A DNA stretch of 64,000 bases from Sulfurimonas sp. SAG-AH-194-L11 (lineage in GTDB: Bacteria; Campylobacterota; Campylobacteria; Campylobacterales; Sulfurimonadaceae), in contig NZ_JAEMVB010000008.1 of the NCBI RefSeq assembly GCF_029215995.1, forward strand, positions 1-64,000, given 5' to 3'. The notes beneath the pieces were generated by a model, which was not told where the DNA came from, did no database searches, and saw only the letters and a list, made by a program, of their open reading frames with translations. Below are positions 35,008 through 43,763 of the stretch, one piece after another (the stretch's first letter is position 1; each line of letters starts with the position of its first letter). A program made the translations under genes and the position numbers.

Positions 35008-35265
35008 ATGCAGACAATACAAATTAATAATCCAGAGATAGAAAATTTTATATCTTCAGAGTATGGCAATGATACACAAAGTCTTTTAAGAGACTTTGTA
35101 AAATTTGTAAAGCTTTCCCTTAATGATGCTTGTCCGACTCTCTCAAAAAGTGAGGCAAGTAGTAGAGTAAACATAGCGATAGCCCAAGTGAAAAACGATA
35201 CTGCTGACTTACTTTCTCAAGATATATATGATGAAGATATGAAAGAGTTTATGAAGTCTTTATAA
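35008..35265 (+). CDS. antitoxin of a ParE-type pair
   Basis: An 85-residue protein preceded by a TATAAT and a good ribosome site (AAAGGAG). I do not recognise its DNA-binding fold, but its size, position and abutting toxin gene (stop TAA at 35263-35265, next ATG at 35266) fit a toxin-antitoxin module. The pair reads straight into a truncated McrB gene. Confidence 0.65.
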   Translation: MQTIQINNPEIENFISSEYGNDTQSLLRDFVKFVKLSLNDACPTLSKSEASSRVNIAIAQVKNDTADLLSQDIYDEDMKEFMKSL

Positions 35266-35547
35266 ATGAGGATACTTAGGAAGAGAGAGTATCAACAGAC
35301 ACTTAAAGTGATTTTAAAATTCATCTCAAAAGATAGTAAAAATAGAGCTATAAACTTTAAAAATCAACTCGATAATAAAATAAACAACTTAGATAATTTC
35401 CCCTATAAATTTAAACAATCCAGACTCCATGATGATGTTAATGTAAGAGATATGACCTTTAAAGGTTACAGTATTATTTATTTTGTTGAAGAAGAAAAAG
35501 ATAGGATATCTGTTGTTGATATTTTTAAGTGGATTGATAAGGATTAG
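35266..35547 (+). CDS. RelE/ParE-superfamily toxin
   Basis: A 93-residue basic protein with the RelE/ParE layout. An N-terminal RKREYQQTLKVILKFISKDS helix pair is followed by beta strands ending in VRDMTFKGYSIIYFVEEEK and a final IKW-like strand (VVDIFKWIDKD). Members poison gyrase or cleave mRNA; which applies here cannot be told. Abuts the antitoxin upstream and is 3 bp from the mcrB remnant. Confidence 0.8.
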   Translation: MRILRKREYQQTLKVILKFISKDSKNRAINFKNQLDNKINNLDNFPYKFKQSRLHDDVNVRDMTFKGYSIIYFVEEEKDRISVVDIFKWIDKD

Positions 35548-35550
35548 AGA

Positions 35551-36195
35551 ATGCCAAAAAATGAAAATGACTTTAGACTATATTTAAAACATACACCAAC
35601 TCAACAGAGAAATAAACTCGATGAGGCAGCAATAAATGCACTCGTAAAAATTTTAAATGAAAATATAGTAAATCAGATACGTAGTGAATACCCTAATATT
35701 AATTCGATACTAGATATTGATGAATTAGATTTCTTGAATAGCTTGAAAGAAAGACTGAAAATTGGAAATAATTTACATCAATTTAATCGTAATATTGGTA
35801 ATGGTGCTCCGAGTAGAGCATTGTTTCAATATATCAATTTTTTAAAAAATGATAAAGCAATTGAGAATTTGGAAACTGAAAGCATAGAAAAAATCAATAA
35901 TCTACAGAATCAAAATACAGGATTAAACCAAATCCTCTACGGACCTCCTGGGACAGGAAAAACATATAATACTATCAATAGAGCTTTAGAAATAATAGAT
36001 GAAGAAGTCTCTGATGATAGAAGTGAAGCGAAAAAAAGATTTGAAAGTTTAAGTGAGGCTGGACAGATAGAGTTTGTAACTTTTCATCAATCTTATGGTT
36101 ATGAGGAGTTTGTTGAGGGTATAAAAGCAAATACTCTTGATGGGAGTATTTCTTATGATGTTGAGGATGGTGTTTTTAAGAAGCTAGCTTTTTAA
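35551..36195 (+). pseudogene. McrB-like restriction GTPase, truncated
   Basis: A 214-residue fragment that starts normally 3 bp after the toxin gene. The first 120 residues are a variable target-recognition-like part. Then come Walker A GPPGTGKT at 131-138 and the McrB-typical TFHQSYGYEEFVEGIKA. The frame ends just past DGVFKKL, where full McrB proteins continue with Walker B, the GTP-binding NTAD motif and about 200 more residues. No mcrC nuclease is present. The junction to the upstream region of yraN is immediate, so the rest was deleted. Confidence 0.8.
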
Positions 36196-36204
36196 AGGAG
36201 TAAC

Positions 36205-36534
36205 ATGAGCAGAGCCAAAGGAAATATAGCAGAAGATAAGGCTTGTATATATCTTTATGAAAATGGTTTTGAGATAGTAGAGCGGAACTTTTACTCGCGT
36301 TTTGGAGAGATAGATGTCATTGTTACTAAGGATAATGTCCTTCATTTCGTAGAAGTTAAAAGTGGTGCTGATTATGAACTTGCAATTCAAAATATTACTG
36401 CTTCAAAAATAAGTAAACTTATTAAAACTGCAAATGTATATATGAAAAAAAATGCCTATGATGGTGACTTTATGCTTGATGCATTGATTGTTACACCTGA
36501 AAATATAGAGTACATACCAAATATAAGCTTATAA
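36205..36534 (+). CDS. yraN: YraN family (UPF0102) nuclease-like protein
   Basis: A 109-residue protein with the YraN fold, a small PD-(D/E)XK nuclease-like domain: KGNIAEDKACIYL, NFYSRFGEIDVIV with the acidic residues, and LHFVEVK. The function is unknown, perhaps in recombination or transformation. AAAGGAG precedes the ATG. A second 3' end of the same gene lies at 37849-37917, so this copy or that one was displaced by recombination. Confidence 0.88.
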   Translation: MSRAKGNIAEDKACIYLYENGFEIVERNFYSRFGEIDVIVTKDNVLHFVEVKSGADYELAIQNITASKISKLIKTANVYMKKNAYDGDFMLDALIVTPENIEYIPNISL

Positions 36535-36602: not shown

Positions 36603-37778
36603 ATGAAAAAGTTAACTATACTGGCTTTTATGTCATTAAGTGTTTTTGTAGTCAATGCAGTAGCATTACCAGCTTTTGCAAGACAACTAGGTGTTTCATG
36701 TAGTGCTTGTCATTCACAAAATGGGTATCCTGCATTAAACAGATTTGGTAGAGAGTTTAAAGCAAGTGGATACACTATGGTGGGTTCTCAAAAGGTCATC
36801 ACGGATGATAAAAATAGCAAATTTATGTCTTTAACCGAGACACTAAATATGTCATTAATGGCTAACATGAGTTACTCTAAGTCGAGTTCAACATCTGCTA
36901 CTATTAATGTTCCAAATGAGGCTTCAGTTTTCATTGGTGGGCGTATTGCAGAGGGTGTAGGTACTTTTACTGAGATGGGGTATGATGCAGAAGCTGCAAG
37001 TTTTAGTTTAGTAAATATGCGATTACCATTTATTTATAATATTTCAGATTATACTGTAGGTGTAGTACCATATCTAACAGATGCAGATGGTCCATCCGCT
37101 AGTACAAATATGTTAAATGCAGGAAGTGTAGTAAGCTCTTTAGGAGACCTTTTTGCAGCACAAGAGTATGTACAAAATGGTGAAGTGCTTGCGGAAGGTG
37201 TTTCACTTTATATTTATAGTGATTTATGGAATGCAGCATATTCAGCATGGATTCCGGTCAATGGAAGTGCAAGTAATGTTGAGTTCGCAAATTTTGCTAG
37301 TGTTGCAGTAACACCAAGAGTAGGTTCTTGGGATGTTGATGTAGGTGCTGAGATATGGTGGGGTACTTCTCAAGTGCAAGATCCAAACAACAGTAGCTTA
37401 GTCATAAGGCGTAAGACTGATTCTTATGCCTTAAAGTTTCAGGCTAGAGGAAGTATTAGTGATGTTCCAGTTAGCTTTTTTGGAGATTATGCAAATGCAT
37501 CGAGTGCTGTAAATTCTTTGTACTCTGTTAATACTAATGATAAGTATGCTGCTAGTTTATCTAGTGAAGTGGCTGTACTTCCAAGAGTTGTCATGGTTTC
37601 TGCTGGATATCGTTTAGCAGATAATGGTGCAACAACTAACTCATCTGATAATGGCTTTTTGTTAGGTGCAAGATATTTTTACAGAGAGAATGTACAGTTT
37701 AGAATAGGTTATATGTATTTACTTGATAATACAACGGATAAACACAACATTATCGCTAGTCTTGATTTAGCTCTTTAG
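36603..37778 (+). CDS. monoheme cytochrome-porin fusion (Cyc2-like)
   Basis: A 391-residue exported protein. A signal peptide covers residues 1-21. It is followed at once by PAFARQLGV and one heme-c motif CSACH at 33-37, then PALNRFGREFKASGYTM. The remaining 330 residues are amphipathic beta strands (porin-like barrel) to the C-terminus. A heme plugged at the mouth of a barrel is the architecture of Cyc2, the outer-membrane iron oxidase. The family is broad and the substrate is unknown, so electron exchange across the outer membrane is an inference. The gene sits between the intact and broken yraN copies. Confidence 0.65.
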   Translation: MKKLTILAFMSLSVFVVNAVALPAFARQLGVSCSACHSQNGYPALNRFGREFKASGYTMVGSQKVITDDKNSKFMSLTETLNMSLMANMSYSKSSSTSATINVPNEASVFIGGRIAEGVGTFTEMGYDAEAASFSLVNMRLPFIYNISDYTVGVVPYLTDADGPSASTNMLNAGSVVSSLGDLFAAQEYVQNGEVLAEGVSLYIYSDLWNAAYSAWIPVNGSASNVEFANFASVAVTPRVGSWDVDVGAEIWWGTSQVQDPNNSSLVIRRKTDSYALKFQARGSISDVPVSFFGDYANASSAVNSLYSVNTNDKYAASLSSEVAVLPRVVMVSAGYRLADNGATTNSSDNGFLLGARYFYRENVQFRIGYMYLLDNTTDKHNIIASLDLAL

Positions 37779-37981: not shown

Positions 37982-39679
37982 ATGAAAATTTTTCTTCTTG
38001 TTTTTCTTCTCTGTAATACACTCTTGTATGCTCTCTCAAAAGATGTCTGTTATTCTGTTCAATTAACAAGTTTTACGAAAAAGAGTAATCCAAATTTTGA
38101 TTTTGAAAAGTATAATTATCCAAATAGCTGTCAACTCATAGAATTTACACATACAAAAGCTGTACGTTGTGGTTGTTTTGAAGTATATGAAGATGTACAA
38201 AAAGAGCAAAGAAATTTAGACTCTTTGTTTAAAGGGGCAACAATTGTACATACCTATAAACATAGGTTTAAAAAAGAAGTACAAGAAGTTAAAAAAGAAA
38301 TAAAAAAAGAAAAAGTTGAAGAAAAAGAAAAAGTAAAAAAAGAAATAAAAGAAAAAGTACCAGTGCTTATAACAGAAGCTAAGGCAGTTGTAAAAAAAGA
38401 AGAAACAATTGCCCAAGAGAAACCTCTTATGATGCAAGAGGATAGATCCTCTTTTATGGATGATATCGCGCTGCAAGGACATATAGACTACACAACACAG
38501 GCTTATCTTACTCTTCCTACCGATAAACATGCCCAAAATATTACCCTCTCAGCATACTTAGAAGTCGCCTATGAAAAAGATGAACTTTCACTCAAAGCTA
38601 AGGCAAAAGCACAAGAAGATTTTTACGACCTACAAGCAGATAGGACTGAGAGAAATAATCGTTCATTTATGCGTTTAGATGAGGTTTATGCTCAGTATGA
38701 CTTTGAAAATGATCAGGTGAGTGTGGGTAAAAATATTCGTTTTTGGGGAGCACTTGAAGTTCGAAATATAACGGATGGTTTTAATCCCGATGAACTCCGA
38801 GATGACCCTTTTGACGCAGATAAACTCGGTGTTTGGAACCTCTCTTACTCCCATTATACTGATGATGGTGAGTTTTCTGCCATTATAAAATTGTATGAGC
38901 AGTCTCGAGATATGTCTGCATCCCCTTATGTTTATTACTATTTTCCAGTAAGTGTTCCTGTCTCAGCAACTGCTTCACTTCCCTTAAAGTATGAAAACAG
39001 GTTACTCACAAAAGAGGGTGATACTCGACCGAGTGTTTATTTGAAGTATAGTGCATCAACAGATACTCAGTACCCTTTAGATTATGCTGTGATCTTTGAA
39101 AATGGCTACGATTCTCAGCGTTATTACACAACGATACCCTCAGGTGACTCAAGTGCAATCATCACAAATGAGAATGCCTATATTGTAAATAAACTCTCAA
39201 CATACAACACCTTAGTTGTAGATGGTACACTTGTAAAGTTAGAGGCTGTATATGTTGATGTGGTGGATGATGCAGAGATTTCAGACTATTATCATATAGG
39301 CTTTGGTTTAGAGCATACTTTAACTCAAGTCTACGGTGAGGCTGATTTAGGGCTTATCTCTGAGTACTATTATTATGGAATTTTAGATGAGAGTAAACGC
39401 GATGATTTAGACCTCTTTGAACTATTTCAAAATGATTTATTTTTAGGTTTTCGTTATACCTTTAACCAAGGGGATGATGCAAGTATCATTGCAGGGGCTA
39501 TTTTAGATATGGAGTATGATGAAAAGGTTTATTACATAGAGTATGAAACTAGAGTTGCTGAGACTTTTAAGGTCAACTTTGATTATAGATATATCGACCC
39601 ATCTCCATCAGACCTAACAGCATTTAATCTTATGGGAAAACATGAGAGACTCAGTCTCAAACTAGGATATTACTTTTAA
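37982..39679 (+). CDS. outer-membrane barrel with K/E-rich periplasmic linker
   Basis: A 565-residue exported protein (signal peptide 1-18). Residues ~20-95 resemble a divergent SPOR-type fold (VCYSVQLTSFTKK...VRCGCFEVYEDVQKE). A Lys/Glu-rich coiled segment of about 50 residues follows, then from ~155 a porin-like barrel with GKNIRFWGALEVRNITDGFNP, reminiscent of DUF1302-type barrels, and C-terminal Phe (LKLGYYF). The stop overlaps the start of the RND transporter (TTTTAATG), implying they work together. Confidence 0.75.
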   Translation: MKIFLLVFLLCNTLLYALSKDVCYSVQLTSFTKKSNPNFDFEKYNYPNSCQLIEFTHTKAVRCGCFEVYEDVQKEQRNLDSLFKGATIVHTYKHRFKKEVQEVKKEIKKEKVEEKEKVKKEIKEKVPVLITEAKAVVKKEETIAQEKPLMMQEDRSSFMDDIALQGHIDYTTQAYLTLPTDKHAQNITLSAYLEVAYEKDELSLKAKAKAQEDFYDLQADRTERNNRSFMRLDEVYAQYDFENDQVSVGKNIRFWGALEVRNITDGFNPDELRDDPFDADKLGVWNLSYSHYTDDGEFSAIIKLYEQSRDMSASPYVYYYFPVSVPVSATASLPLKYENRLLTKEGDTRPSVYLKYSASTDTQYPLDYAVIFENGYDSQRYYTTIPSGDSSAIITNENAYIVNKLSTYNTLVVDGTLVKLEAVYVDVVDDAEISDYYHIGFGLEHTLTQVYGEADLGLISEYYYYGILDESKRDDLDLFELFQNDLFLGFRYTFNQGDDASIIAGAILDMEYDEKVYYIEYETRVAETFKVNFDYRYIDPSPSDLTAFNLMGKHERLSLKLGYYF

Positions 39680-42008: not shown

Positions 42009-43763
42009 ATGTTTAGTATAGAAAAAATCATACACGAAAAAGCTCCAAAACTAGTAAAATGGACCCCAAAACTTCTACTCAGTTTTATAATAAGAAAGTT
42101 ACAAAAAATATTTCATGAAAAAGAATTTAATACATTTTATAAACGAAGTCATTATTTAAAGAATTTAGAGTTTATAGATAGCGTCTTAGAGTTTTTTAAC
42201 ATTACCTATACAGTAAAACCTAATGAGCTTAAAAATATCCCCTCAACTGGACGTGTTTTAATTATAGCCAACCATCCAACTGGAGCACCTGACTCATTCT
42301 CTCTGGTACAGCTTATAGGAAATGCACGAGAAGATAAAAAAGTTAAAATTCTTATAAATGGAATGATGAGTTTTATTACCCAAGCCGAAGGTCTGATTAT
42401 ACCTGTTGATATAGCAGGAGGGATTACAAAAGCAAGTTTAAAAGCCATCAATACAGCACTACAAAATGAAGAAGCTGTAATAATATTTCCCGCAGGTTTA
42501 GTTAATAGAATGGGAAAAGATGGACTGAAAGATATCGCTTGGAAATCAAGTTTTTTAAAACTAGCAAAACGAAATGAAGCTCCTATCTTACCCATAAGAA
42601 TTGAAGCTAGAAATTCTAATATGTTCTATTTTCTCTCTATGATTTTACCTAAAAAAATAAGTGGACTTCTCTTAGCAGATGAGTTTGCAACTGCTCAAAC
42701 AAGACGACCTTTAGAGTTTAACATAGGTAAAGTCATACCTGCTTCTTCATTTGAATCCAAAAAAATCTCTTTGGACGAATATATCCAAAAATTTTATAAA
42801 CATCTATACACGGTTGGCACAACACAAAAAGGTTTTTTAAAAACAGAGATAACGATTAGCTCTGCTAGTAACAAAATGATACTCAAACAAGAGATAAAAA
42901 AAGCACAAACACTAGGACATACAAAAGATGGAAAACTAATAGTTTTAGCAGAACCTGTAGATGCTCCATTTTTGATTCAAGAACTTGGACGTGTACGTGA
43001 GGTTGCTTTTCGTGCTATAGGCGGGGGAACAGGAGAAGCTAAAGATAATGATCAGTACGATAACTACTATAAACATCTTATTTTATGGGATGAAGAGGAT
43101 TTAGAAATAGTAGGGGCATATAGAATTGGTGAAGTAAATGACATCATCGAAAAACGTGGAATGGAGGGCTTATATACTTACAAGCTATGTGATTTTAATG
43201 AACATTTCAAAAACTATACACAAAACTCTATTGAACTAGGGCGTAGTTTTATCCAGCCAAAGTACTGGGGGTCTCGTGCACTTGATAGTCTATGGCAAGG
43301 TGTTGGTGCATATCTAGCAAATAATCCGCATATAGTATATACCTATGGAACAGTAACTATTAATGGAGATACACCTAAAAAAGCGATTTCTGCACTTGTC
43401 TACTTTTACTCACACCATTTTTCATGTACAACAGATATGATGAGTGCAAAAACACCTTACAATATGTCTTATGATGAAAAAACTGAGTTTGATGAACTCT
43501 TTAAATATAAATCGTATAAAGATGGTTTTGTAGTGCTAAAAAAACTTCTCAAAGATCTAGGAACGGTTGTACCAACACTTTTTAAACAGTATGCAGAACT
43601 ATATGATGAAGGTGCTGTTCGATTTTTTGACTTTAGTATAAATGTACACTGGAATGGAGTAGTCGAAGGTTTTATCATCGCAGACAATACAATGATGAAA
43701 GAGGCCAAACGCAAGCGTTATATCGAAAACTTTAAAATGCAAGCACAAGAGAGTGAGGGTTAA
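42009..43763 (+). CDS. olsF: OlsF-like bifunctional aminolipid (ornithine lipid) synthase
   Basis: A 584-residue two-domain acyltransferase. The N-terminal half is PlsC-like: ANHPTGAPDSF with catalytic His89 and Asp, then FPAGLVNRM. The C-terminal half is a GNAT/OlsB-like N-acyltransferase: LGRVREVAFRAIGGGTGEAKD, ELGRSFIQPKYWGSRALDSLW. This order is that of OlsF, which acylates ornithine on nitrogen and then oxygen to make a phosphorus-free membrane lipid. AAGG precedes the ATG and a TATAAT lies at 41972-41977, so it can also be made independently of the transporter. Confidence 0.82.
   Translation: MFSIEKIIHEKAPKLVKWTPKLLLSFIIRKLQKIFHEKEFNTFYKRSHYLKNLEFIDSVLEFFNITYTVKPNELKNIPSTGRVLIIANHPTGAPDSFSLVQLIGNAREDKKVKILINGMMSFITQAEGLIIPVDIAGGITKASLKAINTALQNEEAVIIFPAGLVNRMGKDGLKDIAWKSSFLKLAKRNEAPILPIRIEARNSNMFYFLSMILPKKISGLLLADEFATAQTRRPLEFNIGKVIPASSFESKKISLDEYIQKFYKHLYTVGTTQKGFLKTEITISSASNKMILKQEIKKAQTLGHTKDGKLIVLAEPVDAPFLIQELGRVREVAFRAIGGGTGEAKDNDQYDNYYKHLILWDEEDLEIVGAYRIGEVNDIIEKRGMEGLYTYKLCDFNEHFKNYTQNSIELGRSFIQPKYWGSRALDSLWQGVGAYLANNPHIVYTYGTVTINGDTPKKAISALVYFYSHHFSCTTDMMSAKTPYNMSYDEKTEFDELFKYKSYKDGFVVLKKLLKDLGTVVPTLFKQYAELYDEGAVRFFDFSINVHWNGVVEGFIIADNTMMKEAKRKRYIENFKMQAQESEG

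Follow-up and report, generated by a model that had tools for sequence, protein, structure and literature searches.

Where Cyc2 homologues are found, they are taken as markers of microbial iron oxidation, also in vent communities with many Campylobacterota. Cyc2 is defined by the motif AXPXFAR[Q/K][T/Y], a CXXCH heme site, a PXL motif, a length of at least 365 residues and a 16-stranded porin barrel (PMC8406198). Keffer et al. excluded any sequence lacking PXFAR[Q/K][T/Y], and the Cyc2 tree has three clusters. Published Campylobacterota Cyc2 sequences are nested within the Zetaproteobacteria, with canonical Cyc2 present in vent and redoxcline members of the phylum (PMC12442345); one plume Sulfurimonas is without Cyc2 (PMC10066037). 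In copper resistance, the multicopper oxidase PcoA/CopA and the barrel PcoB/CopB have been discussed as a porin-oxidase pair (PMC5566968), and He et al. 2017 handled Cyc2 and PcoAB as separate systems. We describe a Campylobacterota clade of Cyc2-like genes, clade A, whose recurrent link to copper-resistance genes is new.

Our analysis started from a window of 64,000 nucleotides belonging to a Sulfurimonas-type MAG (1.8 Mb, 79% complete), which carries one clade A gene (Table 1). The gene opens with ATG behind an AGGGAG ribosome-binding sequence, ends in TAG, and is the sole gene of its kind in a search of its own genome. Its first 21 residues form the hydrophobic sequence MKKLTILAFMSLSVFVVNAVA, which on inspection reads as the export signal peptide expected of Cyc2. 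Cysteine and histidine occur just twice each in the protein, and there is exactly one CXXCH, where composition would give 5e-5. The nearest relative, at 73% identity, comes from a congeneric MAG that bears the label Sulfurimonas (G084). Against its nearest relatives the gene has a dN/dS of 0.11-0.14 and is thus under purifying selection. Pfam and NCBIfam held no usable model for the protein, the single match (c_type_nonphoto) falling far below cut-off; PDB sequence searches gave no match, and scans of viral_contigs gave no relative.

Table 1. Features of the clade A gene and its flanks (window coordinates)
Feature	Position	Strand	Basis
Intact yraN (UPF0102), directly upstream of the Cyc2-like gene	36205..36534	+	
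Cyc2-like single-heme cytochrome-porin gene, clade A, 391 aa	36603..37778	+	ORF, profile, tree
Predicted signal peptide, residues 1-21	36603..36665	+	Sequence inspection; cleavage near NAVA/LPAF
Heme-plug signature ALPAFARQLGVSCSACH, residues 21-37	36663..36713	+	Alignment of relatives
CSACH heme site, residues 33-37	36699..36713	+	C33, C36 and H37 invariant in alignment
PALNRFGREFK, residues 43-53, PXL plus FGR.FK part of plug	36729..36761	+	Alignment; motif definition of PMC8406198
Barrel-like region, residues 62-391	36786..37775	+	Low-confidence AlphaFold2 strands, Foldseek matches
Decayed 3' remnant of a second yraN, DFMIDAVIVTPLDIYRIDNITL then stop, 22 codons	37849..37917	+	Local score against shuffles

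The original prediction had read a signal peptide, a CSACH motif, the PALNRFGREFK pattern and about 330 barrel-like residues from this open reading frame, and all of these are borne out. Its remark that the protein is shorter than typical Cyc2 holds against the canonical-motif relatives found here (404-508 aa), but 391 residues pass the 365-residue cut-off and are normal within clade A, where lengths run from 385 to 400 aa.

The plug is the best conserved part of the protein. It runs from A21 through L29, C33 and C36 to H37, and then from P43 through L45, G49 and R50 to K53. An alignment of 16 relatives from several subfamilies has ten invariant columns, most of them in the plug, and C33, C36 and H37 are unchanged in all 16. 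As in Cyc2/Cyt572 (PMC8406198), a signal peptide is followed by a single N-terminal CXXCH, with P.FAR before the heme and PXL..FGR.FK after it, and a barrel-like part of about 330 residues brings the whole above 365 residues, with homology to canonical-motif sequences along the entire length. The likeness breaks at one position of the signature, where the window protein has ALPAFARQL. In place of [T/Y] it carries Leu, and the other clade A members carry Met where the position is readable, so clade A proteins would be excluded under the published Cyc2 filter. The proline of PXL, moreover, stands at +6 after the heme histidine instead of the usual +4, a spacing also found in some canonical-motif sequences (L052, L060, L062). 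Clade A further differs from Cyc2/Cyt572 in forming a clade of its own and in having copper rather than cytochrome genes as neighbours. In the Sulfurovum copy of clade A (L003:288-1490) a stop codon replaces the conserved Gln of FARQ (FAR-stop-MGVSC), and this copy may be either a pseudogene or an assembly error.

Kinship with Cyc2 extends beyond the plug. A profile built from 15 canonical-motif sequences, including proteobacterial plasmid ones, matched the window protein over its full length with 88 bits. The barrel without the plug still scored 16.3 bits, compared with a best of 7.5 among 2000 shuffled barrels, and an unrelated outer-membrane protein of the window scored -1.7 bits; neither of two unrelated outer-membrane-type proteins of the window matched the profile as the barrel did. 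This whole-length match, barrel included, places the protein in the Cyc2-like cytochrome-porin superfamily and goes beyond chance resemblance. The Cyc2-type architecture and kinship originally proposed, and the whole-length profile match looked for on that account, are thus upheld by profile, tree and alignment. In the tree, clade A and its sister clade E split from all 15 canonical-motif sequences with support of 100/100, the references for Cyc2 being these 15 sequences, recognised by motif. The proposed comparison with known Cyc2 thus separates clade A from Cyc2 as defined by motif. Judged by its broken motif, its longer heme-PXL spacing and its separate clade, the window protein falls outside Cyc2 sensu stricto.

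The Campylobacterota relatives group as canonical-motif Cyc2, clade B, a tandem pair C/D, clade A and its sister E. Canonical-motif Cyc2 mostly follows the pattern FARQTGxxCxxCHTxFPEL, clade B reads FARQM..xCMSCHxQNxPKLN, and clade A reads FARQ[M/L]G[V/I][S/A]C..CH, then mostly QNG[Y/F]PALN. Clade A is carried by 9 of 228 genomes of the family and by one Sulfurovum MAG. Canonical-motif copies were also present in the Campylobacterota genomes searched here (L041, L043, L044, L060, L062, L063, L066, L068, L072); they share phylum, partly genus, and architecture with the window protein, but have about 20% identity to it and lie across the 100/100 branch. From their motif, these copies are probably those already reported (PMC12442345). 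The taxonomic surprise first seen in a Cyc2-like gene in this phylum is therefore partly known.

Two of the other groups have settings of their own. Several genomes of the genus have their clade B gene (L038, L039, L045, L048) at one conserved site, with ammonium genes of the amtB/glnK type on one side and gyrA on the other. Clades C and D form a tandem pair of two different Cyc2-like genes (L040, L042, L046, L047, L049), mostly near a divergent 100-aa single-heme cytochrome, a Tat-signal protein and an NTF2-like protein. The C/D pair forms a conserved electron-transfer locus in Sulfurimonas, and we know of no description of it.

Structural evidence for the barrel is consistent but short of proof. 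Alternating hydrophobicity in the barrel part was found in 62 windows, against a shuffle mean of 39.5, with 23 of 500 shuffles reaching 62. Two AlphaFold2 models, built from three sequences, had about 16-18 strands at low confidence (mean pLDDT 35.5 and 40.5). Their top Foldseek matches were outer-membrane barrels (among them OmpT and OmpU of Vibrio, PorB, and FadL) with TM scores of 0.3-0.45, which we take as a hint only, since the models are of low confidence. Barrel prediction, as originally suggested, thus returned strands and porin-like matches, but with pLDDT of only 35-40 and TM of at most 0.45. We also rejected the idea of a barrel that binds copper through many Met or His residues, as the Met and His content of clade A does not exceed that of the other clades.

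A copper-cassette gene (YtkA, PcoA-type oxidase, CopB, DUF302, SHOCT or Cu-ATPase) lay within 5 kb, and mostly adjacent, at 7 of 12 clade A loci: cassettes at L033, L034, L121 and L128, and partial ones at L122, L123 and L031. The same count gave none at the 17 loci of clades B, C/D and E and of Campylobacterota canonical Cyc2, with an RND match near L041, of 22% identity to CusA, left uncounted. At some loci the flank is short, as the contig ends close by. Fisher's test, treating loci as unrelated, gives p = 5e-4, which is optimistic because the linked loci share descent and represent about three independent lineages. A genome has about one HMBD copper ATPase, so that a locus would have one beside it by chance in about 0.4% of cases, taking 10 kb of a genome of about 2.3 Mb.

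In two single-contig genomes (G011, G556), the Cyc2-like gene sits inside a run of copper genes on one strand, in the order PcoA-type multicopper oxidase (TIGR01480, 785 bits), CopB, Cyc2-like, DUF302, SHOCT and HMBD copper P-type ATPase (TIGR01511, 609 bits). YtkA and DsbD-like genes lie ahead of the cassette in both, in G011 with a short stretch of other genes between. In G043 the genes downstream of the Cyc2-like gene, which lies close to the start of its contig, follow this order too; another contig has a second copper cassette, in which a 134-aa decaying Cyc2-like fragment (L128:2467-2871) stands between CopB and DUF302. In a genome of another genus (G521) the clade A gene is oriented divergently to SHOCT, Cu-ATPase and a CusA-type efflux system; the G593 gene lies ahead of a cassette-type DUF302, and the G084 gene ahead of a cassette-type YtkA gene, 158 bp apart. 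The link is frequent but not obligatory, because clade A genes also occur in genomes without an HMBD ATPase (G084, G026, G593), and G032 has a cassette without the Cyc2-like gene, carrying that gene elsewhere in the genome.

Clade A genes resemble parts of Pco/Cop operons in their place within complete or near-complete cassettes, with CopB on one side and DUF302/Cu-ATPase on the other, and the task we propose for them, metal oxidation in the envelope, would be of the same kind. To our knowledge, no heme porin is a component of Pco/Cop copper-resistance operons. In the literature we searched, no Cyc2-like gene was described from within a copper operon, an absence that proves little.

Unlike these cassette genes, the window copy is outside any such operon, with no copper-cassette gene within 5 kb; copies in G026 and Sulfurovum and one copy in G521 are likewise unlinked. 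A copper-type ATPase is present in the window genome, and no CopB was found in it at 79% completeness. The window gene stands between an intact yraN and the decayed tail of a second one, whose local score of 66-80 compares with a shuffled maximum of 42-51, so the Cyc2-like gene was probably inserted at this site. In the relatives G018 and G001, yraN comes after a formate-dehydrogenase-type gene, and the gene immediately behind yraN encodes an outer-membrane protein.

Other genes surround this site in the window. A ParE-type toxin gene (35266-35547) and a small gene upstream of it (35008-35265) are likely a toxin-antitoxin pair whose insertion separated the formate-dehydrogenase-type gene from yraN. 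A truncated McrB-like AAA protein fragment of 214 aa (35551-36195), ending just before yraN, is probably the remnant of a restriction or defence gene. Downstream, a 565-aa protein with an outer-membrane-type C-terminal part (37982-39679) has an HAE3 transporter alongside; in several relatives this pairing comes with a 249-aa gene directly upstream, which is absent from the window locus. A functional link of the Cyc2-like gene to the 565-aa protein and the HAE3 transporter was rejected, the pair occurring elsewhere without it. The same gene run includes a bifunctional ornithine lipid synthase OlsF (42009-43763; NF052615, above cut-off).

In our view copper handling by a metal-oxidising heme porin is a better explanation than Fe(II) lithotrophy, and we put at roughly 0.4 the probability that clade A proteins are outer-membrane barrels with one c-type heme plug that oxidise Cu(I) for copper tolerance. 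The protein would follow the Cyc2 design, in which the N-terminal segment with its single c-type heme forms the redox plug of an outer-membrane beta-barrel. At the barrel mouth, a reduced metal ion in solution would give one electron to the heme, and the electron would travel on through the pool of periplasmic c-type cytochromes into the respiratory chain. The window genome encodes several periplasmic c-type cytochromes and, as read from its open reading frames, what looks like a Sox cluster. For clade A the ion would most likely be Cu(I), since the neighbours are copper-resistance genes, and its conversion to the less toxic Cu(II) would be part of copper tolerance. A heme route would need no O2, unlike a multicopper oxidase, and the porin could act beside or in place of the O2-dependent enzyme when oxygen is scarce. 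The redox potential of the one neutrophile Cyc2 measured, about +208 mV (PMC8406198), would in principle be compatible with Cu(I) oxidation. The unlinked window copy may share this role, and could serve either copper or iron. Doubtful, though within the same line of thought, is a wider proposal: that clade A works as a cuprous oxidase without need of oxygen. On this view sulfur-oxidising Campylobacterota recruited a heme-plugged barrel of the Cyc2 superfamily into their copper cassettes, where the O2-dependent multicopper oxidase cannot work, and it would feed electrons from toxic Cu(I) into nitrate or microaerobic respiration.

A serious rival, possible although we lean against it, is that clade A, in spite of its divergence, works as an Fe(II) oxidase. 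As in canonical Cyc2, electrons from dissolved Fe(II) would enter at the outer membrane and supply periplasmic cytochromes, the copper linkage being incidental cassette traffic. Three diverse Cyc2 proteins, which share the architecture of clade A, oxidise Fe(II) (PMC8406198), and canonical Cyc2 occurs in vent and redoxcline Campylobacterota (PMC12442345). Periplasmic c-type cytochromes are present in the window genome. Yet every clade A member departs from the [T/Y] of the signature, the clade stands apart from canonical sequences in the tree, and its recurring neighbours are copper genes. No cytochrome c or high-potential iron-sulfur gene adjoins the window gene, whereas a c-type cytochrome gene lies just downstream in five of the six proteobacterial plasmid homologues examined. 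The incomplete signature, separate clade, lack of an adjacent cytochrome and copper neighbours leave the Fe(II) or electrode electron uptake of the original prediction without specific support.

Keffer et al. (PMC8406198) cautioned about functions other than iron oxidation, and the differing contexts of clades B and C/D within one genus, ammonium genes and gyrA for the former and a small cytochrome c and a Tat protein for the latter, suggest functional diversification. Clade A might by extension be a general outer-membrane electron conduit, or a redox porin detoxifying reactive sulfur species, nitrogen oxides or another metal, with specificity for neither copper nor iron; we consider this unlikely, as copper genes alone recur beside clade A. 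The signs of mobility and decay, namely placement between yraN and a yraN remnant, the in-frame stop in the Sulfurovum plug and the truncated second copy in G043, would fit an ordinary porin whose heme motif lacks an electron-transfer role, or a decaying horizontally acquired gene. The conservation of the plug with its invariant heme ligation residues and the low dN/dS make such an explanation very improbable.

If copper handling is indeed the role of clade A, Cyc2-like genes would be unsafe as markers of iron oxidation. The tie of clade A to copper would show the Cyc2 design serving other metals, and would call for caution with iron-oxidation assignments made from genes alone. It would also suggest that copper-stressed cells have an O2-free route for the oxidation of Cu(I).
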